Assembly: GCA_037042185.1 (NCBI GenBank)
Contig: JAXQJY010000028.1
Location: 2,046,001 to 2,110,000, forward strand
Reading direction: 5' to 3'
Origin: Sordariomycetes sp. S80-01Y
Lineage: Eukaryota > Ascomycota > Sordariomycetes
Length of the DNA: 64,000 bases
Position 1 is the first letter of the stretch; each line of letters starts with the position of its first letter. This document shows, in pieces, positions 11,331-59,900 of this stretch. Below the pieces are notes generated by a model, which was given only the letters and a program-made list of their open reading frames with translations, did not search any database and was not told where the DNA came from. The position numbers and the translations under genes were made by a program.

Positions 11331-11378
11331 TGAAATACGCGGGCACGAACGCTAACATCCAGAAGTAACGCATCGGGT

Positions 11379-12961: not shown

Positions 12962-13307
12962 AGCGTGCGGGAAACCAAGAGTTCTGGCCCTTCACAGAAT
13001 TTCATCATATACCATGCTGCTTTCGACATATCTCTAAGCGACATATGTCCTCAATAGATACCCTTTCACAGAAGAGAATTAGCGGTCTCACATTTAGCTT
13101 ATACGCATTTCGGCCTCGTTTAGATATGCAGACTTGAAGGCTCGAAAAAGACTCGCTGTCTTCGCGCCTCCCATATTTCGCAGTGATACACCAGTGCACC
13201 GAGGAGCTGTCTCCTGTCCTACCACATAGATGAAGGCTGGAGGTGCCTTATCGTATCGCACTTTTCGCACTCAATGGCACCAGGATCTAGCTTGCCAGTA
13301 CTAAGCC
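12962..13307. other. Intergenic, convergent gene ends
   Basis: This spacer separates the 3' end of the DUF7708 gene from the 3' end of the transporter gene. I see no coding or RNA feature in it. Confidence 0.5.
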
Positions 13308-24945: not shown

Positions 24946-25842
24946 TTAGTCAACAACCTCAACACCCTCAGGCATGGGTGTCTGCTTTATCCAAGCGTCG
25001 ACGGCTGCGGCAAATCTGTCGGGAACCTGCAAATTCCAGCCATGTCCTACTCCCCTGACTGCCACCGCGATGGACTGCTTTGCATTACCCTGGCCAGCCG
25101 TCCTGATCCTGCCCATGAACTTTCCACAACCCTCGACGTCGTCCCCCTGGTCCCCAGCCGCCATGAGGATTCTTACCTGTTTCTGGGCCAGGTCCTCTGC
25201 CAGATCGGAGTTCCACGTCTTGAAAATACCACCGAACGCGTTCTCAAAGAGAGCCACCGTGTTGTTCTTCCAGATCTCACCCCTGAGTTCGTGATGCGGC
25301 TTCATTTCGATCCACCACGTCTGCGCCCTGTAGAAGCCAGACCCGACCATAGCCCACAGCATCCACGAAACGGTCTTCGGATGCGTCACCGCCCACTGCT
25401 GCACAGGCTGGTAGACTGTGCAGCCCGAAACGAAGGCCGTATTCACCAGCGAGTTGTGGTTCCGTATCAACTCCATCGTCGCGAACCCGCCGTTCGATAT
25501 TCCCACGACGTGTGCGCGGCCGCCGTGCGCATATTTGCGTATCAGATCAGCGACCTTGTCAGCGGCGAAAGTCTGCGAGTACGGTTGGATGTGCCGCGAC
25601 GCTGAATGCTGAGGCAAATCAGGGATGATGAGGTGATACTGGGACAGGTGGCTGCCGACGTAAGCCCATTCGAGGTTGCAATTGCACAGCCCATGGAGAA
25701 GAACGACGGTCTCGTCAGCCTCATCGTTCGTTGTGACGAAGAACAGCTCGTCTTTGGCAGACATGTTGTTGCGTGCAGCGTGAGGAAAAAGAGCTTTCCT
25801 CGTCCCAGATGGAATCCAGAGATCAACGCCAGGTGCAGGCAA
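24946..25842 (-). CDS. Alpha/beta-hydrolase fold protein
   Basis: A single uninterrupted frame encodes 298 residues, or 272 if translation begins at the downstream ATG at 25764 (MSAKDELFF), which fits the domain start better. The oxyanion-side HG follows the first strand (ETVVLLHGLCNCNLEW). The nucleophile elbow is GISNGG, with serine at about residue 116 of the long form. A likely acid lies in MAAGDQGDDVEG and the catalytic histidine in RGVGHGWNLQVPDRF. The overall length and the order of these motifs are those of small esterase/lyase-type alpha/beta hydrolases. No signal peptide is seen from the downstream start. Substrate and pathway are unknown. Confidence 0.85.
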   Translation of the reverse strand: MPAPGVDLWIPSGTRKALFPHAARNNMSAKDELFFVTTNDEADETVVLLHGLCNCNLEWAYVGSHLSQYHLIIPDLPQHSASRHIQPYSQTFAADKVADLIRKYAHGGRAHVVGISNGGFATMELIRNHNSLVNTAFVSGCTVYQPVQQWAVTHPKTVSWMLWAMVGSGFYRAQTWWIEMKPHHELRGEIWKNNTVALFENAFGGIFKTWNSDLAEDLAQKQVRILMAAGDQGDDVEGCGKFMGRIRTAGQGNAKQSIAVAVRGVGHGWNLQVPDRFAAAVDAWIKQTPMPEGVEVVD

Positions 25843-30876: not shown

Positions 30877-31330
30877 CCGGGCGGGTGGCAAAGTCGGATT
30901 TGAACCTCCCCGTGGTGCCACCTGGGAACCTAGACCAGCATCACTGGTCTAGAGCTGACTCAAACCGCGCACTGTAAGTTTCTCTCAAGAGCAAAGACTG
31001 ATTTTCAGGACAGGAACGGCTATAATGTGGTGTGGGTTTGGCGATGCTCAGATCGACATTTGCCTCGACGCTCTCTACAACGACAGAGCATGGCCACTAG
31101 ATATAGAGCATTGTCGGCAGCAAACGTCAATCCCTGCCCACAATTGAAAGCCATTGGAATGCAGAGGTGAGTCCATCCGTCTGCCTACTGATGCGTTTGC
31201 CCGGGCTGACTGTAAGACATACAAACCTCGGCCTTGTGATTCGATGGCGGTGACGGTGGCAGGTTTCAATGGTGGGACAGCCTTGAGGCTTCCGATAGCA
31301 GCGAGAAGATGTGACATCCCGTATGGGGTG
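30877..31330 (-). repeat. Dispersed repeat copy A with tRNA-like B box
   Basis: About 450 bp are repeated in the same orientation at 31831-32255. Both copies begin with CCGGGCGGGTGGCAAAGTC and can be followed to GCTTCCGATAGCA...AGAAGAT and CATCCC. On the minus strand the left end reads GGTTCAAATCC, a perfect polymerase III B-box form, next to TTTGCCACC. A nearby self-complementary block can form a strong hairpin. This looks like a tRNA-related SINE in minus orientation, but I cannot identify a full tRNA head or an A box. Confidence 0.55.
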
Positions 31331-31560: not shown

Positions 31561-31679
31561 ACATACGACCATACCTAGTGGAAAATACGGGATCCCGTCC
31601 GCTCTCCCATAGTCAAGCCGCTAAGGGGCTGATTAGTAGTTGGGTCGGTGACGACCAGCGAATACCGGCTGTTGTATGT
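31561..31679 (+). rRNA. 5S ribosomal RNA gene
   Basis: About 119 nt match the Neurospora-type 5S rRNA along the whole length. The 5' end ACATACGACCATA can pair with the 3' end GGCTGTTGTATGT (helix I). The block GGATCCCGTCCGCTCT and the internal control region AGTAGTTGGGTCGGTGAC are present, followed by GACCAGCGAATACC. A long T run directly after the 3' end serves as a polymerase III terminator. In Pezizomycotina 5S genes are usually dispersed single copies, as here. It sits between two copies of a direct repeat. Helix positions look compensated, so it is probably functional, though I cannot exclude a recent pseudogene. Confidence 0.9.
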
Positions 31680-31702
31680 TTTTTTTTCTTTTTTTTTTTC
31701 TT
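31679..31702 (+). terminator. Polymerase III T-run terminator of the 5S gene
   Basis: Two long T runs separated by a single C start at the very end of the 5S sequence. This far exceeds the four to five T residues needed for polymerase III termination. The unusual length may instead be the poly(A) tail, on the other strand, of a retroposed element inserted here. Confidence 0.6.
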
Positions 31703-31833
31703 CGATAGCCGTTTCCAAACTCAGTGGGAGTGGCAATGTATTCAAACTCCCATAATCCATACGGATGTTGGGAGGCTTCCATGGTAGACACTGGCACTCC
31801 CGGCCTCAGCTCCACATTCCCCCGAAATGACCG
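31680..31833 (-). repeat. 5S-adjacent repeat, copy 1
   Basis: The segment from the T-rich run to CCCCGAAATGACC recurs in diverged form at 45990-46179. The last 30 or so bases (CTCAGCTCCACATTCCCCCG and flanks) are almost identical in the two places. In both places the T run directly follows 5S rRNA 3'-end sequence. Read on the minus strand this would be a short element ending in a poly(A) tail at the 5S terminator. Confidence 0.6.
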
Positions 31834-32255
31834 GGCGGGTGGCAAAGTCGGATTTGAACCTCCCCGCGGTGCCACCTGGGAACCTAGCCCAGTATCACTG
31901 GTCTAGAGCTGACTCAAAACGCGCACTGTAAGTTTCTCTCGAGGGCAAAAAACTGATTGTTAGGACAGGACCGGGAGTCTTGTAATGTGGCTTTGGCGAT
32001 GCGAAGATCGAAATTTGCCTTGACGCTCTTCACAACGGCAGAACATATCAACCCGTACCCACAGTTGAAATCCATTGAAACGTAGAGGTGAGTCCATCTT
32101 TCTGTCTACTAATATGCTTGCCAGGGCTGACTGCAAGACATACAAACCCAGACCTTGTGATCTGGCCATTCGGCGGCGACCGTGGCAGGGAACAATCTCA
32201 GGACAGCCTTGGGGCTTCCGATAGCACGCAGAAGATATTACATCCCATATAAGAC
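31831..32255 (-). repeat. Dispersed repeat copy B with tRNA-like B box
   Basis: Second copy of the repeat at 30877-31330, offset by 954 bp and in the same orientation. It differs from copy A at many positions, mostly by C/T and G/A changes, with a few short length differences. The B-box-like GGTTCAAATCC (minus strand) is kept. The abrupt left border of the match lies exactly where the 5S-adjacent repeat ends. Confidence 0.55.
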
Positions 32256-32399
32256 TGCATATTTATCTGGGCTGAGTTAATTACTCTTTGTTATAGGACC
32301 AGAAAAGAAATCGGTGAACATACACCGCACAGTGTCCATACGCTGCTGATCGTGCAGTCTATTCGGCACACGACCCTAGGCAACTCAAGACGCCCTGGT

Positions 32400-33544
32400 T
32401 CAGGCAATTTCTCCCCCCTTTTCACCAAAATCCTTGGGTACCTCGGGTCCCCAGACTGAAAATGGTCCGACAACATCCCTCTCTGTTGGTGTGTCGCGGT
32501 TGACAACGTCTCCATCGGCGTAGTGTTCAATCTTGAAACCACTCGAATCCGCCCAGTAATCAAAGATCTGGCTTCCGAGAACGTGGCGACCAACCCCCCA
32601 GATGCTCTTCCAACCTTTTTTAGCCAGCCACTGATGTCCGAGAAGCTGTGTGTCGAAATCTTCCACTTCGTAGGAAGTGTGATGGAGGAAGATCTTCTTG
32701 ACGTGTGGCTCGGCCCGCTGCATGAAGAAGCAGTGATGGTCGGAGTACTCCTCACCGAGGTCGAGGTGCATGAATGTCAACACATCCATGTTCGAGAAGT
32801 CCCAGTGGTAGAGGATATTAGATGGGACAAAGTTGAAGTTGCTGGTGTACCATGCAAGCTCATTGTCGAAGTCGGGGACTACGTAGCCAAAATGGCCCAA
32901 CTTGTGGACAAGGGCCGGCCCTTCGTGATAGCGCTGGAACTTGCCTGCCTTTCTTAGCGAACATGTCAATCGGGTTGAGGGTTTTTGGTGAGCGTACCAC
33001 GCCTCGGCTTTGCAAATGCCTTATTGAACGGCCCTTGCTGCTCATGTGTTGCTGAGGGTGCCTCCGGGCTCGGCTCCCGCTCTTCCTGCCCAAATATGAC
33101 GTGGAAGAAGGTGTTATCGGGTCGCTCGAATGTGATCATCTTACCTCCACCCGGTGCGTCGTCCAATGACCCCACTATGGCCCCGTCCAAGTTTGCAGCC
33201 TTGTCGAACTCGGCTTGAGAGGCAGCAACGAATGCCGGGCCGCGGAATCTCGGCTTCCCATCCTTACTCCGAGTGGCAACGTAGATGTACGGGTCCCTGC
33301 CATAGCCTCGAAAGTAAATCCTGTCGTCCGTGCTTCGCTCTTCGACGAAGCCAAAGTCCTTGGCAAAGGCGCGAAACCTGTTCAAGTTGGGGTGCTCGAA
33401 GTATACATGACCTATTCGAGCAAGCTGAACTTTGGACGGGTCGTTAACGATGGACGGAATTCGCATGTCTGGCATAATCGCCTCACGTATTGATCTCGGC
33501 AATTTGGTGAGGACTGTCAAAGCAATTTGCAATATGAGCGACAT
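32400..33544 (-). CDS. Two-domain extradiol (catechol-type) dioxygenase
   Basis: Exons 32998-33544 and 32400-32944 (intron 53 bp) give 363 residues; MPDMRIPS at 33475 is a possible later start. Two vicinal-oxygen-chelate modules are seen. The N-terminal one (ARIGHVYFEHPNLNRFRAFAKDFGF) is non-catalytic in the family. The C-terminal one has the metal ligands at about His200 (HKLGHFGYVV), His270/271 (LHHTSYEVEDFD) and Glu322 (IEHYADGD). The segment WGVGRHVLGSQIFDYWADSSG matches the extradiol dioxygenase signature region with the active-site His and Tyr, although the usual Pro is Ser. The enzyme should cleave a dihydroxylated ring next to the hydroxyls using Fe(II) and O2. It lies with an FAD hydroxylase, an FAH-family enzyme and a regulator, which supports a catabolic role. 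Confidence 0.87.
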
Positions 33545-34091
33545 TCTTCACGCCTTTGCCGAGGCACATTTTGTAGGCGTTGCCCGCGACTCGTATTTAT
33601 ACGCATTCTAACGGGCCACATTTTGGGGGTCGTCGCTGGCGTTGCTGGGAGCGCGTCATGATTCGCTGTCCTGCTAGCGGTCTCTACTGCGCCCGCCTTC
33701 CTGAACACCTTAAAGCCAAAGGTCAATTAAAGATGTACCGATAATGACTTTGCCTTCGGAAGACATTCCTCCATGGGGAGACTAGGTGGTGTGGCGCGTG
33801 GAGCTTCGGAGAGACTTCTTAGACCCGCCTGAAAACCGCGGCGCCGCGTATGCACGGCCGGAACATCTTCTACTGGAGTATCTACTGAGTATCTCGGAAC
33901 ATCGCAAAACCACCGCTCGGGATGCGACTAAACCTCTGACCTCGACTCTGACCTCGGCTCTGCAGATGGCGAGGCCGCGACTCGAGTAGGCGGGATGGCA
34001 CTTATACAACCATGAGCTCATCGGATCCAGCAAACAGCGGCAACTGTGATCGCGCCCCGAAGTTCCTTTCTAACAAGATTGGCAGCTCAAT

Positions 34092-35043
34092 ATGACGGGC
34101 GAAGCTCCATTCGCGCTTATCACGGGCTGCAGCAGCGGCATTGGCAAGCAATTGGCAATTGCCTTCGCTGAGAGGGGGGTCACTGTTCTCGCAACCGCCA
34201 GGCGGGCGGAGTCGCTCGAGGATTTGACCAGCGAGTACGAAAACATCGAGGCCTTGTCCCTCGAGCTCAGCAACTTGGACAGCTTTGACAAGCTACGCGA
34301 TGTTGTTGTCAAGCGCACAGGTGGCCGTCTGGACTTCCTGGTCAACAATGCAGGAACTCATTACGCAGCTATGGCGTTGGACTTGGATGTGGCAGAGGTC
34401 ACTGAATTGTTCACGGTCAACGTTTTTGCCGTTATGAGGCTTTGCCAGCTTTTTGTGCCCCTCCTTCGCGAAGCTCCCCGTGGGCGCATCGTGCAAATCG
34501 GCAGCGTGACGAGAGTCGTCCCGGTCGTGTGGCAAGCCGGGTACAATGCCTCCAAGGCCGCTCTCAGTCAGTATACAAAGACACTGAGGCTTGTGAGTAT
34601 TTACGAACAATGTCAACGAGGAGCACTCTTACATGTATCAGGAGATCAAGCCGTTCGGCATCGAAGTCATTGAGATCGTTGCCGGATTCGTCCGCAGCAA
34701 CATCCTCCATCATGGCCTGTACGCCCCAAAAGACTCACTCTACCTGCCCATTCAGACCACAATGGAGCGCATAAAATTCCAGGGAAACGCAAGCGGCATG
34801 CAAGCCGATGCGTTTGCTAAATCTGTCGTTCACAAGCTGATGCAGCGGCGGCCAGGTCTTGAGATCTGGGAGGGTACATTGGCGTGGAAGCTACGAATCC
34901 TCGTCACCTTTTTCCCATTGATCATGGTAGTATGCTACCCGTACGGCATTTATTTGAGATGACTGCTCACATGTTTTATGTAGGACTGGATCCTCTTCCG
35001 ACAATACAAGCTCCACCTCCTCAACTGTCGAAGCACCACGTAA
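34092..35043 (+). CDS. Short-chain dehydrogenase/reductase, AYR1-like
   Basis: Three exons (34092-34592, 34642-34926, 34984-35043) give 281 residues. The nucleotide motif is TGCSSGIG at residue 12, NNAG is at about residue 87, and the catalytic Ser...Tyr-x-x-x-Lys appears as QIGSVTRV followed by YNASKAA. The order ITGCSSGIGKQLAIAF, ATARRAESL, VNVFAVMRLCQLFVPLL is characteristic of the 1-acyldihydroxyacetone-phosphate reductase and 17-beta-hydroxysteroid-like SDR group, which uses NADPH. The C-terminal DWILFRQYKLHLL is likewise typical. In this cluster it may instead reduce or oxidise a ring-derived alcohol or ketone; that is inference. It is divergent from the dioxygenase, with a spacing of about 550 bp. 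Confidence 0.88.
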
Positions 35044-36225
35044 TACGCCCGAAGACGTGGTCTCTCAGGGGAAGACAATTGATCAGGGTAGAGAACCGAA
35101 TAGGTCTTGTTCATTGTCTCAATTGCTTTCATCTAGCCTTCTCCTGCGACCTAAAGCTGGTTCCAGTATCGATTACACACTTCAACCACCATCGGTATTA
35201 GTCCCCCCGGGCGAGACTTGAGAACCAATCGGAAGCTATCAAAAGGGGGAAGAAAAACATAGAAATACGTTGGATATGGATAAGGGACGTTCCAGAGGAA
35301 AGGACAGATGAACCCGAATCGAATGCATCGACAAGGCGAATCCCCAAGATAAACCACCATCAAGCTGGGTGCAGTTCACTTTTTCAGCTTGAAAAAGCTC
35401 AATTGATCACAAAAGGATCTCCATACCTCCTCGCTTCGTGTATTTCACCGCGTTAATATTGGCACTGATGCATAACGACGGCGGCACCTATGTTCGAATG
35501 GCAAGAAAGCGAGAAGGACGGTCTCGACTGAATTGTCTGCAGAGGCGTCAGACTCGCCCGAGGGCCTCTAAAGAACTAGGTCATCGGATTTGAGAGTGGA
35601 AAGCCGTCTACGAGTCTCGCCAGTTCATTCTTCCAGGCTGTCCAAAGCGCGGCCCATTCTCACATGCGGCTTGACTTCGATACCGTGGAAACCAGCTCCA
35701 TCTGCTAGTACCTCAGTGTCATTGCATTGCCCAACAGCACACAGATCTGAGAGTGCACTTGGCCTAGATGGTCCCAATCGTCAGTACCCGAGCGGTTGTG
35801 TAGAACCATTTCTAGCCGAGGTTAAGAGACACCGCGCTTGCTGCGAGTGTTTAGGAGAAGAAGATCCTCCTGCCGGTCGCGGCGTGCGACTCCCCTAGTT
35901 CCTAGTCAAATACAGTTGTGACTGGCTGTGCTGTGTAGGCTTAGGGCCAGGCAATCATATGTCATCCGTATTCCTTGGCTTCAATAATGCCATCCCTCGC
36001 TCCGGCCGGAGGATCTCGAGAATGTGGAGCAACTCAGTACTGCTGCTAATGAAATGATCCCAGAGTCGTGCCGGAAGTTCTCTGATTTGCCAGTTTGCCC
36101 GGCCAGCAGCATTGGCTTGTGTTGACTACCAAAACGAGGCTAGGCAGTTTCGGGTCGAAAGTATATGTACTGGCTGGTCGACTCGTGGTTGAGGAAAACG
36201 AGACAAGCCACAGGTCAAGTTGTCA
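35044..36225. other. Intergenic, no supported gene
   Basis: This is the spacer between two genes on the same strand of the putative catabolic cluster. Frames of up to about 118 codons on either strand lack domains. The segment directly before 36226 is the promoter of the FAD hydroxylase. Confidence 0.5.
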
Positions 36226-38255
36226 ATGGAACAAACGCAGGTTATTGTCGTCGGCGCCGGCCCTGCTGGGCTGGCGCTTGCCATCTCTCTGGCAAAATTC
36301 CGCATCCGAGTATGGCTTTTATTCACGTCTGCCCTTCCACCAAACTGACAATAGTACAGACAGTTGTCATTGAGAAAGACACTGAGGTGACAAAAGACCC
36401 TCGGGGCGTATATCTCACCGGAGACGCCGTGAGGATATTGTATGACCTGGGCCTTGGTCATCAAATGGCAAATATTGGACAAGGTTGATAATTATTCCCG
36501 CTTGTGCCTCGCGTATGACGCTGTTACCGAGAAGGACTGGGCTGACTGGGTTGGTAAAGAGCTCTCCAAAGTCAATTTTCACCAGAGCTCGTTCAATTCG
36601 AAGCCGTTCTTCCAGCTGGAAATCGGCACCCCAAACTCACTGCATCAATCGGTGCCTGAGGGACTTGTGCAAAGTCAGCCAAAGCTTGGTCGGTCATTAC
36701 CCAGCAGCTCTACCATTGAAAAATAGTCTAACCTGCCCGGCATGTAGAAGCTGCTATGCGAGAGGCGGCCGATCAGTCGGAGTACTGTACAATTCGAGAA
36801 GGATGCCGCGTGGTCAGTAGACCTTGCGAAGATCCGCCGGCAGTTGAGTATATTGATCGAGACGGCGAAAAACGCCAAATTCAGGGTGAATGGCTTATCG
36901 GCGCCGACGGGAAGGTTGGAATCGTGAGAAAGCACTTCCTCGAGCCCACGGCGGGTATAATACAGGAAGAAGGAAAATACCCCTATAGCGGAACCTGGAT
37001 CGCCGCCAACTTGAAGTTGACGCCCCCAACACCGCAAACGCACCCGGATTTCCCGCTATGGCGCCTCGGATACTCACCTGAGGAGGTTTATGATCTTTTT
37101 TGGCCGAAAGGATGGCACTTCTGCAGCCCTCCAGGCAAACCGACGGCGAGTGGAAGATTCGGGCCCCGCGAGGACAGGACTTGGCGCCATGAACTGAGAC
37201 AAGAGGACTGGAATGACTCAATGAATGCGGAGGAACTCTTCTGGGAACATCTGTTGCCCATGGTCACGCTGCAGAGAGACGACGAACGACACCGCGAGTT
37301 CAACAAACCAGTGCAGTATCCCACTGACTGCATCGAGATCCTCCGCTGTCGGTCTTTCAGGTTCACTCATAAGGTCGTCAACCGCTGGTTTCACAAACGC
37401 ACCATTCTTATCGGAGACGCGGCGCATGTATTCCCACCTTTCGCTGGGCAGGGCATCGGCAGCGGCATGAGAGACGCGCATCAGCTCGCCTGGCGACTCG
37501 CCCTGATCGTCAAGATGAAGCATCACCACGAAGCAGAAACCATCCTTGGGTCGTGGGCTCTTGAGCGCCGCAAGAGTGTGGACGACGCGGCAATGTTGTC
37601 CTACATGAATGGTCGCTTATGCAACGATCAGCCATTACTCTGGATCCGGGTCGTACTGGCCTTGGTAACATTCCTAAAGTCCAGTCGATTCCTACCCCGA
37701 CTCCCAGATCCTCAAGTCAATATAGAGAGGAAAGGATTTTCTTCCGTGCAGGGCGGCTTCCGCATTGGTGAACGCAACGGAGGGACTCGACTTGCTCAGA
37801 TCCTTTTGAGATCGAATTCCGGTGGCGAGGTACTTTTGTCGGACTTTTTGCTGCGGTCTTGCAATAGTCTGTTCACTATTCTCGCCATAGCTAGGTCCGA
37901 GGACTACGGTCAAGTTTACGAGGGCGCAACGTTGGCCGTGAAACGCGCTGCCGTTGAGGAAACCATCGTTTCCGAGGGTTCAATCGTGATGTTCAGTCCC
38001 GATTGCAGCAGAATATTGTCTGAATCAATTACAAGCGACAGCCAAGATCGACTTGAGGTCTTTTCACCAGCTTCACGCGAGTCATCTCGGGACGAGACGG
38101 CTCGCTCTGAAGACGCGCAGGAGTACATGAATCGCCTTGGAAGACGGACGCAGTATGCCTTGGTGCGACCTGACTTCTTCTTTTTTGCCTGCTGCAAGGA
38201 CGCTAATGAGTTGGAGGAGAGCCTGCTGAAGCTAAGAGTGCAGCTACACCTTTAG
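36226..38255 (+). CDS. FAD-dependent aromatic hydroxylase (PHBH fold, MhpA-like)
   Basis: Four exons (36226-36309, 36360-36483, 36560-36688, 36748-38255) give 614 residues. The three fingerprints of the para-hydroxybenzoate hydroxylase class are present: the N-terminal dinucleotide-binding GAGPAG (residues 10-15), the DG motif GADGKVGIVRKHF near residue 166, and the GD motif ILIGDAAHVFPPFAGQG near residue 336. Length and the spacing of the motifs resemble 3-(3-hydroxyphenyl)propionate hydroxylase-like enzymes, which add a hydroxyl beside an existing one on a ring. The second intron (36484-36559) has a weak donor (GTTGAT) and is placed because it joins conserved sequence IGQ-ELSKVNFHQ. The dioxygenase next door would accept the kind of product expected, so the two likely act in series. 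Confidence 0.87.
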
Positions 38256-39123
38256 AAACACGAGCGACGGTTCAGCATTGCTCAGAAGCTGCGCTTGTTT
38301 TTTTGGGTGGAGAAAAAGTCGGGGTTATTAGCTTGAGCTCATAGCATTTTGGATTGATCGAGCATGAAATATTCAATTGCGGAGATGAACGCGAGAGCAG
38401 ACGAGCATGGTACTAATGTCGAAGTCTCACGCCAATGTGATGCAGCGTTGGTGTCCGTTAGCGGTTTTCCTGCCCTTCCCTTCTCGCGAGATACTCCGAG
38501 AAGTACGAAGATAAACTAGGGCAAGCCTTCCTGTCGCTTGAGGGCTGAGTATGGAAGTCCCTGATCTTGTCAGCAGCTGAGCGTTGGATAAGGGCTTGGC
38601 AGATAATATTTGAGTTTTATCCATGGCGAGAATTGGAAACATGCTCGTAGACAAACTTTCCTCAGACTGACGTGTCTGGTCTAAGTATAGCGAGGCCAGT
38701 TGGACCGAGTTGCTTCACATTAAACAATGGTTTATTGTCATATTCCAACCCTAGACTTGTGAAGACCCCACTCGCCTCACTTTCCACATGTTCATGCTTG
38801 GGCGCTGCCAAAAGCATAGCGTGGTGGTGGTGACCGGCAATCAATATGCATTGATTTCAAATAAACTTCCGGCTGTGTTTTCAAGAAGTTATCTTCACTT
38901 CTTTCCCTCTAAAAAGCAACAACACATGCACTGCATATGACCTGCAGTACGAGGCTGACACACCACCAAGCCTTCACGTAGGCTCTACAATTTCTTACGG
39001 CCATCGCGTGAGCAGGCTGATCAGAGTATTCTGTAGGTACAAAATGATTTTCGTAAAAAATGTTACCCTTTATCACACCTGTCAGCGGCAGCTTCGGTCG
39101 CCCTGCTCATGAGACCTGCTAGC
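38256..39123. other. Intergenic, convergent gene ends
   Basis: No supported gene. A 60-codon minus-strand frame at 38662-38844 with a histidine run is too short to call. The flanking genes converge here. Confidence 0.45.
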
Positions 39124-40221
39124 TTACTCAAATTTCATCTTGTTTCTCAGTGTCCCGACCTTGTGCATCTTGATTTCCACCACGTCGCCGTCTTTCAGAA
39201 ATGTCTTTGGCTTCATGAATACTCCAACACCAGCGGGTGTGCCCGTCATGACCGCCGTGCCAGCAGGAATGGTGGTGCCTATTTCGGATGTATGAGTTAT
39301 CTTGCATGATAGATGGAGAAGATCTCTCGAATAACCAACCTTGACTCATGTGGCTGAGAATCTTCTCGGGGGAAAATATCATGTCTTTCTTAAAGTCTGC
39401 CCTTTGGCGGACCTGGCCATTCACCTCTGTGATGACCTCGAAGGCCGTGCCGTCGGCAAAGAGTTTCGGGCTGAGCAGAGAGGGACCGATCGGCGCAAAC
39501 TTGTCGAAAGCCTTGGAGAAGAAAAATTGACCCGCTTGATTCTTGGGAAGTTGAAATATGCGGCAGGACACATCATTGCCGACGGTGTAACCCAGAATGT
39601 AAGCTTTGGCGTCTTCGGGTGATAAATCCTTGCAGTCTCTAGATGTGATAAACACCAATTCGCCCTAATCATTATAGAAGAAGGGTTAGTACTATAGGGA
39701 AAACAAAGTTAGCTTGCGACATTAATCACCTACCTCGTAATCCAAGAGGCTCTTAGCGCAGAAGTCATTTATAGGAATGTCTTCATCTGGGTTGGCGAGT
39801 GCCGCTGCTGGCTTTGTCCAAAGCGGAGGATAAAAAGGAATCGTGAGCTGCAGATGCGAACGGGGTCAGCATTAGATTCGTCGCCATTTGGTTCAAAACT
39901 CGGGCTGGCCTACATCCGCTTCCTTGGCGTGGCTTCGATAGTTAAGACCAACGCAGTAAATGGGAACCCCCTCCCTAGGGAGCGGCGCTAGGAGCTGTTG
40001 CATTGCCGAGTTAGAGAATCTCGGACGACAACTTAGGGGCAGCATACTCGGCGTATTGTGACATCACGCTCCCCAGTCTGGCTGGCTAATTCGTCGACAG
40101 ATGCGAACGCACCTATCTTCGTCCCCAGGGCAGGAGGCTCATCTGCGTCAGGTCCGAGGTCGGCAAAGCAGGGTTTGCCGTCCTCTTCGCATTCAAATCG
40201 GATCAGATGTGAGAAAGACAT
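39124..40221 (-). CDS. Fumarylacetoacetate hydrolase-family protein
   Basis: Five exons on the minus strand (40048-40221, 39914-39994, 39734-39847, 39340-39664, 39124-39278) give 282 residues. The FAH fold is shown by PIYCVGLNYRSHAKEA, SLLDYEGELVFITS (metal-binding glutamates), GYTVGNDVSCR, KAFDKFAPIGP and TAVMTGTPAGVGVFMKP, all in the right order and spacing. Family members hydrolyse acylpyruvates or isomerise and decarboxylate the products of ring cleavage, using a divalent metal. The N-terminal 60 residues form the small leader domain found in the fungal 2-hydroxyhepta-2,4-diene-1,7-dioate isomerase and fumarylpyruvate hydrolase-like members. Beside an extradiol dioxygenase it is a good candidate for the step after ring cleavage; the exact reaction is not readable. 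Confidence 0.9.
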
Positions 40222-40622
40222 TTCGAAACAAAGAGGAGAAAACGAAACATGGGTGTATATGCTGCGAAGTCGATGTAGAATGGTCGAGTTCAGAACTTGT
40301 TCTGTCCGAGGGATCAACGCACCTTTGTTGAAATTATCTGCCAGCGTTACAAGTGTTATAACAGGTCATCTTCCCTCTAATTTGACATTCAAGCAACATG
40401 CGGTTGGCTATTCGATGATCTGCCGGAACATCTCCTTATTAGGGATATTCCAGAGAAGTGGGGCTTCCCCACATGCGCCGGGTGGAGGCTTCCCGATCAC
40501 TTCGGAACATCTCTCAATGACGAGACGTTTCTGGCTCCGGCTGGAACGATGTCTTCAGCATCTCATCCACATAGCCCGAGGCCGTGGTAGTCAAGGCGAG
40601 AAGTTAGTATATCGTGGCCCAG
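40222..40622. other. Divergent promoter of hydrolase and regulator genes
   Basis: About 400 bp separate the start of the FAH-family gene (minus) and the Zn2Cys6 gene (plus). I see no clear CGG-type inverted repeat, but this is the most likely place for a binding site of the cluster regulator. Confidence 0.4.
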
Positions 40623-42839
40623 ATGTTGCTGAGAATGGAGCGTCAGGCGCTACATTTCGTTGCTGAGACTGAACCTGTCGATCACGACCGGAACTTTCAA
40701 TGGCAGCCTCCTGGCATTGCCGGACAGCGGTCCCAATCCGACCAGGCAACCGGGCCCGCAAGCTCTCGAGTCTGTGATCGCTGTATCCGGTAAGTATCTC
40801 ACATGAACGCAAATTGCACAGTGAAAGCCAAACCCCTCGCTAACGGGTTCGCAGGAAGAAGGTGAAATGTATGTAAACCCCTGCCGCAGCATCCGTCCCC
40901 ATACGCACCTTGGCTTGTTTCATAACAGAACTTATCGCAGGCGACATTCAGCGGCCTACATGCTCTCGCTGTTTCGAGGGTGGCTATACCTGCACCTACT
41001 CGTCAACGAGGCGGAAACCCGGTCCCCTTCGTGGCTCTCGCCGTGGTCGTGCATCTAGGCAGCCGAGGTTCTGCTCCAATCGACGAGGTACGTGAATGTT
41101 TCTCCGATCTGAAGTCCCGCCACATGGATCAATCAATTCTCCCATTTGTCAGCTCTGAATTCTACACTTGAACTAACCCCGTCATCGTTCAGCCTCGGGG
41201 CATCCAGATCACTCCACCGGTACCAAGTCCCCCCAGCCCACTCAGTGTTCACCCGAAGACCTCGGCGACTCAAGGCACCCCGAGTCTATACAGACGGTAT
41301 CGTCGACCACAGCTGCCCGTGGGTCCTTGGATTCGCTCCCACGGAACATACTCCCGGAGGAGGTGGACCATCTGTATGTGTCACTTGTCGTCCCGACCAC
41401 TCGGGCTAATCCAATGGCAGGTTGAGTGAGTACTTTGACAGTATTCATGAGGCAATACCCATTTTGTCAAAACGCCAATATATGTCCGACTGGTCTAATC
41501 TCTCGTACACACGCGATCTGATCGAAACCGTAGTTCTAATCACCGCCAAGCTTACGGGCTATACATTCGCCTCCGATGATTTCGACATAGAAGCGCGCAT
41601 CGACATGATACTGAGCACCGGATATCGGGAGGAGGAGATGTTCGGCGATTCCCCATCCATAGACCAGGTTCGCAAAGCATGCCTACTAGCATTCTACGAA
41701 TTTCATCAATTTCCCGGGCAACAAGCTTGGATGCGGATCGGAAAACTGACACGAATGGCGTTGTGGATTGGACTCGATCGTCTCGAGGATCTCCAAAAGC
41801 TATACCCTAGCTTCGCTGCAATGACAGAAGGCCAGCTCGACGAATGGCGGCTGGTTTTGTGGTGCATCTATCGACTGGACTCCTACGCCAACCTTTCATC
41901 GGGAACGCCTTATCTCATAGACGAGAGATTGATAAACACCGCTCTTGTTCAAGACCAGGAATGTGATGGACTGAGAGGAACTCAGCATGGATCTCTCAAC
42001 AAGAAAGTCTTCTTACCATCCCACCCAGGTGGTCTCCGGGAGCTACTTCCTGTCATTACCTCGGATTCCCGTCAGACATTTCTATTTAACATGCATATCA
42101 TCACCGCCACTGTCATGCGGCAGACAGGCCGTGCATTATGGTTATATAAGTTTCGGTCGCAACAGGGGCCAGAGTCTCTTCATGACATCGAGCGTCATCT
42201 CTCCGCGATTCGCCTCGCCTTGCCAACACACTATCTCAATACAAGACGCAACGCGTTCGCGAACGAATCAGGGATGGATCATCATGCGAGGCTGGTAACC
42301 CTGTTCCATTTAACCATGGCGCGGCTTCTTATCTCGCTCATAAGATGCCCTAGCCACGAGGAAGAGAACCAATGGCTTCTATGCTGGCAGCAGGTTCTTG
42401 AGGCGTGCCAGGACATGGCTGCAATCTCGGAGCAGTGGGTCAGCTCGTATACCCTCAAGGTTGACCCTGCGATATCGGTCATCATTTTCACGGCTTTGGT
42501 ATTCCTCGACATACACAAAAAGTCGGCCCATGCTCTTCCAGTGAATCAGAATTCCTCTGTGCATCACTATGAAGCGATGCTTTTCATGCATCTAGAGCAA
42601 TTTGCCGCCGTGTGGACGCTTCCGCGACTTCTCACTCGTAAGTATGCTCTTGGATCAATTGTATGACCTAAACAAATCTGATGTCGCCAGTCTCCTTGAA
42701 GAGTTTCAGAGAAACCGTTACCGGCCCGCTGGGACCCCATCACATTCAACATATCCTGTCTCGCTTTGAAGCGCCGTTACATCCCTGTTGGTTGCAGTTT
42801 CTCTCCACAGCGCAGGCCGAGCTTGCCGCATGTCAATGA
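40623..42839 (+). CDS. Zn2Cys6 transcription factor, cluster regulator candidate
   Basis: Six exons (40623-40789, 40855-40868, 40941-41087, 41193-41373, 41421-42637, 42691-42839) give 624 residues; ATG 40635 is an alternative start. The zinc cluster follows a 50-residue leader: CDRCIRKKVKC, then CSRCFEGGYTC, with spacing Cys-x2-Cys-x6-Cys-x6-Cys-x2-Cys-x6-Cys. It is spread over three exons, and the middle one is only 14 nt. A basic linker with RGSRRGRASR follows. The middle of the protein is the fungal-specific regulatory domain (ACLLAFYEFHQFPGQQAWMR, LSSGTPYLIDERLI). Proteins of this type bind CGG half-sites in the nucleus. Its place between the FAH-family and P450 genes suggests that it controls this cluster. 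Confidence 0.88.
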
Positions 42840-43976
42840 CAGATGGTGCTTCATGCACTTGACGAACTGAACTGACCTTGCGAACGTCCTGAAGGACGTT
42901 CTGCGCACACGTCAGAACCCATTCCCTGGCAAGGCGAGGATCATGTCGGCCTGAGCTAATGGTGAAGCCCGTCGGCCGGTGCACGGTGTTGGACTTGCTC
43001 GAAAGATCGATTGAGGCCCTTGATGAGTGCGGCCGTTGTATAGCTCACGTGTTCTATAGCGATTGACTTATGGGGAGCCGGATGTACAATGTTCATAAAG
43101 GAACTAGAAAGACCAGGATCCTGTGTTGGCGTAGAGTGCTCCCGCACTGCTGAGTCTCCTACTCTTGCCGCGAATGCGCCCTTCCCAGAGCTGCTCAATG
43201 TGATGAGCAGTATGGGAGAATTGAATGAAGTCCGTACTGTTCCATGAAGTATCAGCTAGGTCTAGGAACATACAAGCTACATTGGCGGGGTGTGGAGTAA
43301 GCTTAGCCCGTGACTGTAGACCCGCAACAGGTTGCATGCTGAGTCGACATCGCCAGGGGTAAAGGATGACGCAGGAGACACATATAATAATACCTGTAAA
43401 TACCGCTGGCCAATGGTGAATCAGGATTGAGAGGATGAGGAGGTCATTGAAACAGCTAACACGAATGTCATCTCGCGGTGTCAAGACTCGCTGCACAAGA
43501 AGGTCTTGAAAACGATTGTTGGTCGGACCCGTCTCCGGATTGCCTAGCGCTACATGGTGTTACCCCCAACCCCAGAAGCAAACAAGGTGCAATGACTGCA
43601 AATGCCACGGCAAAGGTACTTTTTCAGGAGCACCTTAGTATTAGACAACTTGTGGCAGGGCCCGATTATTTAACAAAATTTAACAGGTAGCAAATGGGCG
43701 AGCAGAAAGGAACTAAAGCACACGAGCGTCCGGAGCGTGGGCACTGATTTCTTGTAGCTGGGGCTAGCGCCTACTTTCGGACCAGTTTGCGATCAAGCCG
43801 CCTTGAGTTTCCTCCGGCACTAGTTCCACCGCCACCTTCGGAAGCTCTGGAGAAAAAGTTCCCCCGGACAGCTGTGCCGGGCTGAGCATCTGTCTTTTCG
43901 AGCAAGAACGAGTATAAGTTGACTACTTGTTAGTCTTTGCGCCATAGGGACATTGTCGATTGTATATGATCCCATC
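42840..43976. other. Intergenic, no supported gene
   Basis: No domain-bearing frame. The overlapping minus-strand frames at 42718-43496 (80-130 codons) look non-coding. The segment just before 43977 is the P450 promoter. Confidence 0.5.
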
Positions 43977-45757
43977 ATGATTCTACAGAATGTGCCAGAA
44001 CCGAGCAGATGGCTGCTCGCAACCGCGGTCGTTGTCTTAGTACTATTCAATCTCGCCCAGAAACGATATCGCACCGGGCTTAGAAGCATACCGGGTCCTT
44101 CGCTGGCAAGATACTCTTCAGCGTTCCGTATTCTCCTCGTATACAAGGGTGATGCGCCCTCCAGGTACCGTCAGCTCCACGAAAAGTACGGGACGATAGT
44201 ACGGACAGGCCCAAACCATGTGTCAGTCTCGGATCCAGCCATGATCCCCGTTATCTACGGCATCGGACAGAAGTTCAACAAGGTATGTAAATCTGACTTT
44301 GATTAAGTGCTAGTCTCTCACTCAAGTAAGACTCCATTCTACCTAACCATGGCGCCGATTTACCAAGGACAACGGATGGATAGCATGTTCACGGAGCGTG
44401 ATCCCCAAGCCCACAAGGCCTTGAAGAGCCCTGTTGCCCAGCTTTTCTCCATGACCAACATGCGAAATTTCGAGACATACGCGGATGAATGTACCAAGAT
44501 TTTTATGGATGCCATGCTGGACCTCGAAGGGCAACCGGTCGACCTCGCACAGTGGCTGCAATGGTACGCATTTGATGTTATCGGCAGCATCACATTTCAA
44601 CGCCGCTTCGGGTTTATGGAGCGGAGGCAAGACGTCGACTCCATGATACAAAAGATCAATCATGGTCTAGAATATGTCAAAGTGATCGGCCAGTCCGAAT
44701 GGCTAGTCTCCCTTTTCGACATGTTATCGAGGAGCGATTGGGTCAAATCTTGGAATTTGTGGCCCGATACGATGGAAAGGTTCATACAGGCAAGGATCCA
44801 CTCCCGTCGCTTCGTGCACCTTGGTATGCTAACTTTATCAGATCACTGAGACAGAACTGTCTAGGTACGATAGTGGCGTGAAAGATCCTAAGCGGACAGA
44901 TTTCCTGTCCCAGTTGAGGGCACAGCAGAACAAATCCGGGAAAATCTCCCAGCGAGACATGATGAATCATTTGTCGAATAATCTGTAAGCGAACAGGATA
45001 CCCCTTATGCTTTACTTCTAACTCGAAGTAGGCTTGCGGGAAGTGACACCACGGCAATTTCGTTGCGTGCGCTGTTTTACTTCGTCGTCAAGAACCCGCA
45101 GACCATGAAGAACCTCGTTAGTGAAATTGATCAAGCCGACCGTTTGGGAAAGCTTTCCGAGTATATTACATACGAGGAGTGCTTGGAATTACCATACTTG
45201 TCAGTGACACCATATATGTTGCCCTATAATAACGTTCTAATGTCGACCTGCAGTCAAGCTGTCATGAAAGAGGCCATGCGCATGCATCCTGCCGTTGGAT
45301 TCCCTTTAGAAAGATACGTCCCCGCCGAAGGCGCCGAGATATGTGGACATAAGCTCCCAGCTGGAACAAATGTGAGCGTTTCAGCGCCCGTACTTCATGT
45401 CAATGGGGACATTTTCGGCGAAGATGCAGCCAAGTTTCGTCCAGAGAGATGGCTAGAGGCCCCTCCCGAGAAACTCAAGATGATGGATCGGAGTTTCCTC
45501 GCGGTAAGTCACGGCAAGCGCGCTTTAGGTGTGCAAAGTGCATGCTGACTGCTCTATAGTTTGGACATGGTTCCCGCACCTGTATCGGGAAGAACATATC
45601 CATAATGGAAATGGGGAAGTTCGTGCCACAGATGTTTCGTCATTACGAGATCCAATGGGCGTCTGACCGTCCCGAGTGGCGTACCCACGCAGCTTGGTTT
45701 TGGAAGCAATCGGATCTGATCGTGAAACTGAGGCGCAGGGAAACGCGCGGAGAGTGA
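43977..45757 (+). CDS. Cytochrome P450, pisatin demethylase-like
   Basis: Six exons (43977-44282, 44331-44789, 44842-44984, 45032-45199, 45254-45503, 45560-45757) give 507 residues. An N-terminal membrane anchor (WLLATAVVVLVLFNLA) and a proline-rich hinge (SIPGPSLARY) place it on the endoplasmic reticulum. The oxygen-binding I-helix reads LAGSDTT (about residues 304-310), the ExxR motif is KEAMR (365-368), the PERF-like motif is FRPERW, and the haem-binding loop is FGHGSRTCIG with the ligand at about Cys450. Similarity of PFYLTMAP, MDSMFTERDP and LKSPVAQLFSM is to the pisatin demethylase group (CYP57-type). The second intron (44790-44841) appears to be of the GC-AG class. The enzyme probably demethylates or hydroxylates an aromatic substrate ahead of the FAD hydroxylase, which is inference. 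Confidence 0.9.
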
Positions 45758-45909: not shown

Positions 45910-46179
45910 GTGAGAAAGAATTCACGGATTCTTCAACTCTACAACACGCCATGCCACGAGGTTGCTCAGAGATTAGCGAAGACCGGCTGTTGGGGGTTTT
46001 TTTGTTTTTTTGTTTTTTTATTTATTTCGGATATAGCCATTTCCAACCACAGCGGAAGATGGCAAAGTGTTTACACCTTTCATAGTCAGCACAAGTAGTA
46101 GGAGGCTCCGTAGAGCAACATGAATACAATACCGTGGCAGAAGCCCCGGCCTCAGCTCCACATTCCCCCGAAATGACCG
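45910..46179. repeat. Decayed 5S rRNA-linked repeat, copy 2
   Basis: A 5S-like 3' end (CGAAGACCGGCTGTTG) at about 45977-45992 runs straight into T-rich sequence and then into a diverged copy of the 31680-31833 repeat. It ends with an almost identical stretch around CTCAGCTCCACATTCCCCCG. The region upstream (from about 45910) can be loosely aligned to the middle of the 5S gene, with many C-to-T-like differences, so a decayed 5S copy is likely. Confidence 0.5.
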
Positions 46180-46365
46180 AGCAGCCCCGTACTTTTGGAG
46201 CCGGCAGCCCCGAAGAGACCCGACGGGCTGGTTAAAAAAGCCGGGGTCTCATTTCCGCTCCCTATTTGCCGCTGCTTTGCTGCTCATGGGTCACTCCATA
46301 TGATGCATCGTTCGGCAGTTCGACTCGTCCGTGGACAAATTGTCATTCATGAGAAAACTGGGCTT

Positions 46366-56945: not shown

Positions 56946-59900
56946 CTAGTTGAAGCTAAAGAAGTCCAAGTCGTGATTCCTCGGTGCCGACGTGCTCTCA
57001 TTACCCTCCTTATCCCCCTTTTGTACCAGCCCGCTGAGACTGACTGGGCTCATGCCATTCAATCCTTGATCGCCCATGCCTAACATCGCGTTGCCGCCCC
57101 GCGTATCTACCTCGTCATCCTTGAGGCCAAAGCTGGCGTTGGACATCAGGCCGTTCGATATCGCCGAGCTCTGCCCCAGCACCGAGCTGGCGCTCAACCC
57201 AGCTGGGCCGGGGCCAAAGTCGCTAACCGGAGCATCGAACTGGCTGGCCTGGTGGTCGCTATTCAAACTGTGAAACCCCCAATTCTCGGTCGAAGGAGCA
57301 ACGAGGTCCATTCTGTCATTTTTCCCGCGGTCATCTGTGCCGTCCATGTCGATGGCAGAACCGTTCAAGAAATCGAGGTTGATGTCGCTCCCGTCCGTGG
57401 CGCCCAGAGAGAACAACATCTGGTCTACCTGCGAATGGTGTCGTTGATGCTCCATGTCGCCAAACATGTTCTGACGCTGAGCTGAGTGTGGCGGCGTCGG
57501 CTGCGCGTGGCCGTTGTTAAAAAACGGCGGTGGCGGACGCGCAAATTCGGACGCCCGTCTGCTGTTGCCTGGACGTCTCTTCTTGAAGGGCTGCCCGAAG
57601 TCCGTGTCTTCTGCTTCGCGTCGCGACGGTACCAGGGGAGCTGACATGTCGCTGCATCCGCTCATTGCGTTGGCGCCATGTACTGAGAACGCCTGGTGAG
57701 GGTTGTTGGTTGGCGGTGCGTCGTCGAGGCTGAGGCGAATTTGTCCCATGACAGCCTTGAGCAGGTCGTGCATTCTTCCGGCAGGGTGATATGTATGGCT
57801 CATATCGCCCAGCGCATCGCTGAGGATCTCGAGGTAGCCCATGTAGGTGCGGCGATCACTGTCGCTCCGCTGGTACGCCAAAGCAGCTATGAGAGCAAGG
57901 ACGGCCGTACCGGCATGTTGGATTCCTGTGACGTGGATCTTGCGACCGTCGAAGCGCTGGCGATGCTGCCAGAAGATGCGAGCGACGCGGATGGCCTGCT
58001 GAGTGCAGATGCTCCTCGACAAGGAAGCGCGGCTATCGTGGACCATCGAATGGGGGTCACCCATGCCCAGCGAGTGCTCTTCACCGGAAAGTCCAGGATG
58101 CTGAGCTGCTGCGTCGGGATTGACGGGCATGTGGCCGGAATCCGGGCTGGGATGGGAACCCGTGCTTGCCCCGTCGCCGGTTATAGACCCATACTTCGCC
58201 CATGGTCGGTGAAGCAGGACCATCGAGACGTGGTACTGCTGGTGCAGGAGGAAGAAGCTCCAGGGCGCGGTCTTGATGTTGGACGGCTTCCATGTGAGGT
58301 GGTCAGGAAGACGTCGGTACCAGTTTTGCAGCTGGCGATCCAGGTTGATGACGTGCAGATAGGCATTGCCCTCCGCTTCGCTCATACCAAAGACGCTGTT
58401 CGCGTCGGTGTATTTCTTGAGCACGTGGTGGTCGCGGGACTGGACGATACGCCCTGCGAGCTCCATCAGCTCGAGCAGTTGTTCGTATATCTCCACGATG
58501 AGGTCCTTCTCAGGCGGCGTGGGGAAGTCTGAGCTGAGCATGGACAGCTTCTCAGACAGCATCTCCATGCCGAGGTCCTCGCTCTTGATGCTTGTAGGCC
58601 TGCCGAGGAAGAGAGCCCAATACTTGTCGTAGATGGCGCACGCGCGCATGGCCATCCGGCGGATCTGGACCTCGTGCTCTGGCATGCCGTTGTTGCGACA
58701 GTCCAGATGCAAACCGATGTCGAAAGCCAGACGGTTCGCCATGCCTATAGTAACAGTCAGTTGGGGGTTCCCAAAATTGGTAGCGTCTGACACTCACCAG
58801 CGTACATCCAGCCTGTGTTGTCCCTCCCGACGCCGCATTCTAGATCTCCCAGCAGTAGAAGAGCTTGAACGCTGGGAATACCGCCGGGGCGTTCAAGCTC
58901 AATGTCCAGCATGTACTTGGCCTCTCTGTGAAGAGTGCTCTCGCGGTTGCCCAACGATATCCTCTTCATGTCGTCTCGATCGGTGTCGCACCCTCGATAA
59001 CCCATGGCAAGAATAGCAATGTGAAGGAAGGAACTGTAGAACTTGGGGTTCTGAGACTCGCGGTCCGCCTCAAAAGCGTCTTGGTCAATGACCGGGATGA
59101 TACTGTTGTAGTACTCCCAGAAGTGGCCCATGAGGTAATCGTAGGTCGAAGCACTCAAAGAGCGGATGATCCTCTCTGCTCGTCTGACTTGCTCGGGCGG
59201 CTCTCGTGAGTCAAACTGGTCTGGAGACTCGGCGTATACGTGACTGTTGGCAGTCGGACCGAAGAATCGGAGTCTTCCAGATAGTTGGTCAAACGACAGA
59301 TTGCCCTTCGTGGAGAGGAGCCGATGAACAATGTCCTCCTGCTTTGGGTCCAACATCCTGAATGGAGATTCTTCTTTTGAGAGTGCATGAAGTATCTGGC
59401 TCTCACTCATCATTGGGTCTATTGAATCCATGTCTGGTCTGATGAAGTCCTTGGTAGAGTCAGGGGGTGACGGAACTTCGCATGAGGGTGATTCGCCGTT
59501 CGGTTGTGGTTGTTGCGATTTGGAACGGCCGTCATTCGAGCTAGCTTTTTGCTGGTCATCCGGCTTTGCTTGGCCGTCTTGTTTAGTTTTCGGAGGGTGT
59601 GTAGCCGGCGGCGGGACCACGCCCTTGTCCATGAGCATGCTTTCAAGCATGTTGATACGGTCCGAGAGCGATGACATGTATGCTTTAGATATCGGCCTGT
59701 CGGGATCAGCACGTGCTCCAAATTATATCTCATATTCATCTTACCTCCTGCGCTCGTCATCATTCTTTATGATGCATTCTGTTCCCGTCCGTCGACATTG
59801 ATTGCATTCAGCCTGTCCTTGTGGAACGACACATCTGATCCTGCGGTCTCGACAGGAGGCACACGCTACCGAGGCGCGATGGCGGACCTGATTCTTACTT

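Follow-up and report, generated by a model that had tools for sequence, protein, structure and literature searches.

Can a fungus open an aromatic ring by meta cleavage with a clustered gene set of its own? The question is raised by a locus in the ascomycete Sordariomycetes sp. S80-01Y, whose 30.87 Mb (30,874 kb) assembly comprises 16 contigs. The window that we analyzed is a stretch of 64,000 nucleotides (positions 2046001-2110000 of its contig), and within it positions 32400-45757 carry genes for a cytochrome P450, a class A flavin adenine dinucleotide (FAD) hydroxylase, an extradiol dioxygenase of the VOC family, an FAH-family hydrolase, a short-chain dehydrogenase (SDR) and a Zn2Cys6 transcription factor. 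We consider it probable, at roughly 60%, that the cluster is catabolic and that its core enzymes hydroxylate an aromatic ring, open it by meta cleavage and then hydrolyze the product. The locus is a good candidate for a fungal meta-cleavage route. According to published work, fungi less commonly have extradiol dioxygenases, and their complete meta pathway is described as unresolved (PMC12388069; PMC8896014). These sources agree with the initial annotation, which held that a clustered extradiol route would be unusual in fungi. Gentisate cleavage, which is also termed extradiol, is already known to be clustered in fungi (PMC8283699).

In the mechanism that we favor, the class A FAD hydroxylase would add a hydroxyl group to a phenolic ring, most likely one of the resorcinol type, to give a product with an adjacent pair of hydroxyls and a third hydroxyl on the ring. 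The type I extradiol dioxygenase, with its metal held by H200, H271 and E322, would then cleave beside the adjacent pair, and because of the third hydroxyl the ring-fission product would be a 2,4-dioxo acid (acylpyruvate type). Hydrolysis of this compound by the FAH-family enzyme would yield a carboxylic acid together with a small 2-oxo acid. Preparing the substrate, for instance by O-demethylation or by oxidizing or reducing a side chain, is the probable task of the P450 and the SDR, and the cluster is probably turned on by the Zn2Cys6 protein. We infer this sequence of reactions, the trihydroxylated ring and the roles of the P450, SDR and regulator.

The predicted ring-cleaving enzyme

The ring cleaver is predicted to be a two-domain type I (VOC) extradiol dioxygenase. 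Its match to the Pfam Glyoxalase model is weak (29 bits, with a cut-off of 20.6), and the assignment goes beyond that match because it rests on HpaD and catechol 2,3-dioxygenase models that align over approximately 290 residues, on a PDB search with the family profile, which returned homoprotocatechuate, catechol and dihydroxybiphenyl dioxygenases, and on a model of the catalytic domain, whose predicted fold is like that of catechol 2,3-dioxygenases. Two homologous VOC domains are present: TIGR02295 covers residues 41-334, and the alignment of the family profile with the structure 1f1r takes in both domains of that structure. All equivalog cut-offs are missed by a wide margin (46.6 bits versus 321 for HpaD, 35.9 versus 366 for BphC and 32.3 versus 320 for catechol 2,3-dioxygenase).

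Residues H200, H271, E322, H253, H303 and Y312 are the same in all 54 bacterial relatives compared, defined as the rows scoring more than 100 bits to the fungal dioxygenase, and the first three align with the His, His and Glu of 1f1r. We take these three to be the metal ligands (2-His-1-Glu) and the others to be the acid-base histidines and tyrosine. The initial annotation had reported active-site residues as visible, and they can indeed be seen in the dioxygenase, the FAD enzyme and the FAH-family protein. The protein also carries the family signature GSQIFDYWxDPxG...EHxxDGD, with S in place of P. When the fungus's own genome (30.9 Mb) was searched with the dioxygenase, the sole gene matched was the query itself, as its two exons. 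Positions 32945-32997 can also be read as a plausible peptide, and a frameshift was considered here; an intron was preferred because splicing restores, as judged by eye, the bacterial spacing of conserved residues.

In a phylogenetic tree, the fungal dioxygenase sits on a long branch and groups with those of two bacterial loci, L068 and L069 (Shimodaira-Hasegawa-like approximate likelihood ratio test, SH-aLRT, 95). At L068, 34 bp separate the dioxygenase gene from a frame that matches 'pyrogallol hydroxytransferase large subunit-like', a neighbor that hints at trihydroxybenzenes for one of the two nearest dioxygenases.

The wider L068 region (8019-12964) holds a second dioxygenase copy, the pyrogallol hydroxytransferase-like frame and then a 4Fe-4S frame, an arrangement that is possibly a bacterial trihydroxybenzene operon. 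At L069 (3910-7987) a frame of equal length occurs at equal spacing, and the likeness is one of frame length alone.

The hydroxylase and the hydrolase

The FAD enzyme displays the class A motifs GxGxxG (10-15), DG (166-167) and GD (335-336) along with an FAD_binding_3 domain. Its nearest NCBIfam models are MhpA subfamilies, which it matches at 202 and 161 bits. The label 'MhpA-like' given in the initial annotation is therefore apt only loosely, as the name of the nearest models, because the curated cut-offs are 390 and 546 bits, respectively. Of 278 plasmid records for the FAD query, 15 were listed, and the highest score among these (101 bits) came from a plasmid of Cupriavidus sp. KK10, on which the match lies approximately 4 kb from the same plasmid's dioxygenase match.

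The hydrolase matches PF01557 at 205 bits (cut-off 23.9), and its residues E123, E125 and D154, presumably the acidic metal ligands, are retained in 85% or more of the 51 bacterial rows compared. It too stays under equivalog cut-offs, both for HpaG (100 of 276 bits) and for 2,4-didehydro-3-deoxy-L-rhamnonate hydrolase (136 of 500 bits). Bacterial FAHs reach 41% identity and 142 bits to the fungal protein among the matches listed. Judged by these sequence scores, the fungal enzymes are not equivalogs of MhpA, HpaD or HpaG.

Bacteria often keep the same three families together

In bacteria, an FAD hydroxylase, an extradiol dioxygenase and an FAH are often encoded next to one another as a trio. 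A search with the fungal dioxygenase found matches in 73 plasmid records and, at an E-value of 1e-20, in 61 of 299 genomes from the family of Paraburkholderia oxyphila. From approximately 80 listed matches we chose 40 surrounding stretches, whose rows are related to one another. Every one of the 40 has an FAH within 5 kb of the dioxygenase, versus none of 19 control stretches from the same genomes, and a class A FAD hydroxylase occurs within the same distance in 21 of them, again versus none of the controls. An enlarged set, to which three plasmid stretches and the 12 loci examined first were added and in which 4 kb had to be present on each side, yielded 52 dioxygenase genes, with an FAH within 5 kb in 48 and an FAD hydroxylase in 23. 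Clustering at 60% identity reduced the set to 17 groups, of which 14 have the FAH (in at least half of their members) and eight have the FAD hydroxylase (in any member).

In public annotation, the FAD hydroxylase, VOC and FAH genes are direct neighbors in Sphingopyxis granuli pRW412a and in Burkholderia multivorans. In Microvirga ossetica, from a legume nodule, the FAH gene is divergent from the hydroxylase-VOC pair. Burkholderia stagnalis and Paraburkholderia sp. PGU19 have the VOC and FAH genes and no FAD hydroxylase annotated alongside.

The Sphingopyxis granuli pRW412a locus (L132:12677-27310) brings together two P450s, the FAD hydroxylase, the VOC and FAH genes, fghA and a gene for S-(hydroxymethyl)glutathione dehydrogenase. 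This grouping suggests that O-demethylation is coupled there to meta cleavage.

Organization of the fungal cluster

Spliced models of the six genes were built by hand and families were assigned with Pfam and NCBIfam models (Table 1). All six are intact, with one spliced reading frame each and introns of 47-105 bp that are GT-AG save for one GC-AG in the P450 gene. The Pfam scores are 230 bits for P450, 147 for FAD_binding_3, 205 for FAA_hydrolase, 152 for adh_short, 35 for Zn_clus and 37 for Fungal_trans. Hence the initial annotation was right to place these six genes in this interval, and their Pfam families are confirmed. It had also called them a chemically ordered set; on the DNA, gene order departs from reaction order and both strands are used. 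Even the trio occupies both strands, with the SDR gene between the dioxygenase and FAD genes. The regulator gene model ends 1 base before completing its stop codon, and the end listed is that of the stop codon.

Table 1. Coordinates of the six genes, their divergent intergenic regions and the flanking repeat, numbered within the window
Feature	Position	Strand	Remarks
Imperfect direct repeat, left copy	31657..31836	+	68% over 208 columns; just outside cluster
Type I (VOC) extradiol dioxygenase	32400..33544	-	363 aa; exons 33544-32998 and 32944-32400
Divergent intergenic region, dioxygenase/SDR	33545..34091	.	From gene models
Short-chain dehydrogenase (SDR)	34092..35043	+	281 aa, 3 exons; included for its proximity
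Class A FAD aromatic hydroxylase	36226..38255	+	614 aa, 4 exons
FAH-family hydrolase	39124..40221	-	282 aa, 5 exons; E123/E125/D154 conserved
Divergent intergenic region, FAH/regulator	40222..40634	.	From gene models
Zn2Cys6 transcription factor with Fungal_trans	40635..42839	+	620 aa, 6 exons; candidate regulator by proximity
Cytochrome P450	43977..45757	+	507 aa, 6 exons, one intron GC-AG; included for its proximity
Imperfect direct repeat, right copy	45975..46182	+	14.3 kb from left copy; just outside cluster

FAA_hydrolase occurs at 10 loci in the fungal genome (16 matches, grouped) and FAD_binding_3 at 16 or more (20 matches, grouped; 19 of 80 candidates scored). Within 16 kb of the 30,874 kb, chance would supply approximately 0.005 FAH loci and 0.008 FAD loci, and the latter value rises to 0.02 if 40 FAD loci are assumed.

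The P450, the SDR and the Zn2Cys6 regulator belong to large, common families, as illustrated by the 93 exon matches in the genome to the P450 query. The P450 had been called pisatin-demethylase-like in the initial annotation (pisatin demethylase being CYP57); its comparison with PDB and NCBIfam gave distant P450s only, and the SDR reached no curated cut-off among the 25 NCBIfam families listed of 212. Membership of the three genes in the cluster, assigned by proximity alone, is plausible because the dioxygenase/SDR and FAH/regulator genes form two divergent pairs, and because the Scedosporium gentisate cluster, described below, is similar in composition.

Comparison with known systems

The fungal cluster may work like hcdABC, the characterized trio for 7-hydroxycoumarin breakdown in Pseudomonas mandelii 7HK4, which hydroxylates a resorcinol-type ring, opens it by the meta route and hydrolyzes the product (PMC6222606). 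HcdA converts a 2,4-dihydroxyphenyl acid to the 2,3,5-trihydroxyphenyl acid, which HcdB opens to a 2,4-dihydroxy-6-oxo dienoate. When HcdC, of the FAA hydrolase family, is present, the HcdB product becomes undetectable; the authors left the HcdC products unidentified. HcdC extracts did not decolorize the meta products of catechol, 3- and 4-methylcatechol or 2,3-dihydroxyphenylpropionate (PMC6222606). HcdC removed the product of a trihydroxylated ring and left plain catechol products undecolorized, and by analogy a partner from the FAH family would imply a third ring hydroxyl in the fungus. Both systems bring together a class A FAD hydroxylase, a type I extradiol dioxygenase and an FAA-hydrolase-family gene, a likeness of family drawn from published description. 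Unlike the fungal locus, hcdABC is a three-gene bacterial operon without a P450, SDR or Zn2Cys6 regulator, and the same-strand adjacency of an hcdABC-type module is not seen in the fungus.

DntG belongs to the FAH family. Trihydroxytoluene (THT) oxygenase, the DntD name, may also be a label for the fungal dioxygenase, and fungal relatives are often annotated in this way. The dnt pathway of Burkholderia uses a monooxygenase (DntB), the THT (extradiol) oxygenase DntD and an isomerase/hydrolase (DntG) in sequence, and differs from the fungal cluster in that its substrate is a nitroaromatic (PMC10602510). One THT oxygenase annotation is on record in Scedosporium (PMC5716253). More loosely, the fungal enzymes may also resemble the first steps of the fde (Herbaspirillum) and ifc (Variovorax) pathways, where an FAD monooxygenase is described as hydroxylating the flavonoid A-ring ahead of a glyoxalase-fold dioxygenase (PMC11069340).

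The Burkholderiaceae loci have the same three families as neighbors, with catalytic residues conserved. They differ in that the best dioxygenase matches are 34-39% identical to the fungal enzyme and their FAHs are not the best matches of the fungal FAH. In the cases looked at, an acyl-CoA synthetase gene comes next.

Gentisate 1,2-dioxygenase is a cupin. In the gentisate cluster of Scedosporium, genes for an MFS transporter, a P450, a dioxygenase, a monooxygenase, an FAH and a Zn2Cys6 protein lie together, and all save the MFS gene are overexpressed on gentisic acid (PMC8283699). The present locus is similar in that a P450, a ring-cleaving dioxygenase, an FAD monooxygenase, an FAH and a Zn2Cys6 protein are clustered in a fungus. 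It differs in its cleaver, which is a VOC protein instead of gentisate 1,2-dioxygenase, and in the MFS transporter of the Scedosporium cluster, and by its sequences it is not a gentisate cluster.

Gluck-Thaler and Slot reportedly defined classes of fungal degradative clusters in 2018. Among these classes, ones with 'aromatic ring-opening dioxygenase' or 'pterocarpan hydroxylase' as the core are already published (PMC10735191). We found no description of a fungal VOC/FAD/FAH cluster in the literature, mostly outside subscription journals, and a prior description is possible. We see here a bacterial-type reaction trio within a fungal cluster that has its own candidate regulator.

Competing explanations and origin of the gene set

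Perhaps the unit is the trio, or less, and the P450, SDR and regulator are chance neighbors. We regard this as somewhat doubtful. It would fit the size of the three families, and an SDR is present in one of the 40 bacterial stretches versus two of the 19 controls. Nor do the promoters speak for co-regulation: a shared CGG/CCG dyad reaches at most three of the four promoter regions, which is not beyond chance, as some dyad reaches all four in 72 of 400 random sets and approximately 3% of random sets do as well as the best single dyads, a figure uncorrected for the trial of 75 dyads. We therefore rejected a common regulator site as evidence for linkage. Set against chance, the SDR and dioxygenase genes, like those of the regulator and FAH, are divergent across short intergenic regions; the Sphingopyxis pRW412a trio is flanked by two P450s and formaldehyde-oxidizing genes; and the Scedosporium cluster includes a P450 and a Zn2Cys6 gene among those overexpressed on gentisic acid (PMC8283699). 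The proposal in the initial annotation that all six genes act together is sustained for the trio, by bacterial adjacency and by hcdABC, but is not established for the P450, SDR and regulator, given their common families, the SDR rate and the lack of a promoter motif.

The chemistry could also be ordinary catechol-type meta cleavage, resembling 3-hydroxyphenylpropionate breakdown, with the hydroxylase making a plain 2,3-diol and the FAH serving as a hydratase, decarboxylase or hydrolase on a simple fission product. The MhpA subfamilies nearest to the FAD enzyme and the sub-threshold similarity of the FAH to the HpaG isomerase/decarboxylase would suit such a route. We nonetheless find it improbable: the MhpA cut-offs are far from reached, none of the six genes encodes an alpha/beta hydrolase (the one at 24949-25842, with 47 bits to MenH, is 6.6 kb beyond the cluster), and simple meta products are not decolorized by HcdC (PMC6222606). 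More improbable still is a biosynthetic cluster, in which the dioxygenase would open a secondary-metabolite ring that recloses (for example, as a pyrone) while the P450, SDR and FAD enzyme serve in tailoring. Such enzymes, with a Zn2Cys6 regulator, are in general the usual tailoring and control genes, but no polyketide synthase, nonribosomal peptide synthetase or terpene synthase is found among the six genes or the 20 flanking frames scanned (mostly the longest of 104 frames of at least 115 aa), and the FAH suggests that the product is broken down.

Other observations weigh against the catabolic meta-cleavage reading itself. The FAD enzyme shares no more than 21-26% identity with its matches in the 15 listed plasmid records, and as a query it gave no match at E 1e-20 in the 299 genomes, with up to four candidates scored per genome. 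The FAH has paralogues at 43% and 41% identity in its own genome. FAHs adjoining bacterial dioxygenases score 54-113 bits to it, versus up to 142 for other bacterial FAHs, and among the FAH matches listed a single one (G132:C8, 122 bits) lies, by eye, within 5 kb of a dioxygenase match. Bacterial adjacency is itself incomplete, as the FAH is not nearby in four of the 52 loci and three of the 17 groups; in the first 12 loci an FAH occurs anywhere in the stretch in seven and an FAD hydroxylase in two, although two of the five FAH misses are contigs shorter than 5 kb. The placement of the fungal dioxygenase in the tree is unsure because of its long branch. The ifc pathway, as described, uses the cupins IfcD1 and IfcD2, and no cupin is found among the six fungal proteins, nor do the six genes include a transporter.

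These data also bear on origin. Inheritance of the whole module from bacteria was considered and set aside, given the empty FAD search at E 1e-20 and the single FAH match, of those listed, near a dioxygenase. The fungal set was probably assembled separately from the bacterial one, because the fungal FAH is not closest to the dioxygenase-linked FAHs and no close bacterial counterpart of the FAD enzyme was found; this evidence is modest, and separate assembly likewise counts against the proposed reading.

Other features of the window and genome

A mobile element was considered for the repeat that flanks the cluster and was not adopted; a genome search with positions 31700-32260 found just three places, all within the window. 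Beside the dioxygenase gene are tandem copies of approximately 0.4 kb (30877-31324 and 31831-32250), spaced by approximately 0.95 kb, which are 77% alike overall with blocks that are 80-95% alike. The segment GGATTTGAACCTCC, part of these copies, resembles a tRNA T-arm; no tRNA was called. The alpha/beta hydrolase gene at 24949-25842 was not adopted as a further pathway enzyme, being distant and weakly MenH-like. DUF7025 and DUF7708 occur in frames at 8947-12958, along with a sub-threshold stretch that is NPHP3_N-like, and the right flank has a second Fungal_trans transcription factor (56949-59722) and an FMO/Baeyer-Villiger-like frame (62436-63581). Elsewhere in the genome, an FAD_binding_3 gene (C14:616989-618080) lies approximately 1.2 kb from an intradiol dioxygenase gene (C14:619277-619972), and this pair is probably an ordinary ortho-cleavage cluster.

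Implications

With a hydroxylase, a ring cleaver, a hydrolase and a candidate regulator at one locus, the question of fungal meta cleavage can be tested on a few genes, and the family signature of the dioxygenase can be used to find the gene set in further fungi. It is conceivable, though unlikely, that the locus is a dedicated fungal route that mineralizes resorcinol-type plant phenolics (flavonoids, isoflavonoids, coumarins) by meta cleavage of the A-ring, with the P450 carrying out O-demethylation and the FAD enzyme, VOC dioxygenase and FAH serving in turn as hydroxylase, ring opener and hydrolase, under a pathway-specific Zn2Cys6 regulator; a flavonoid, isoflavonoid or coumarin as the substrate is a guess. 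In Penicillium rubens, the intermediates of naringenin breakdown resemble those of the bacterial fde route, but no syntenic cluster was found there (PMC10755750). If such a route exists, the present locus would offer candidate genes for that process. Furthermore, the occurrence of the trio in distant bacteria, together with the mismatch of the FAHs, suggests that this reaction set has been assembled more than once.

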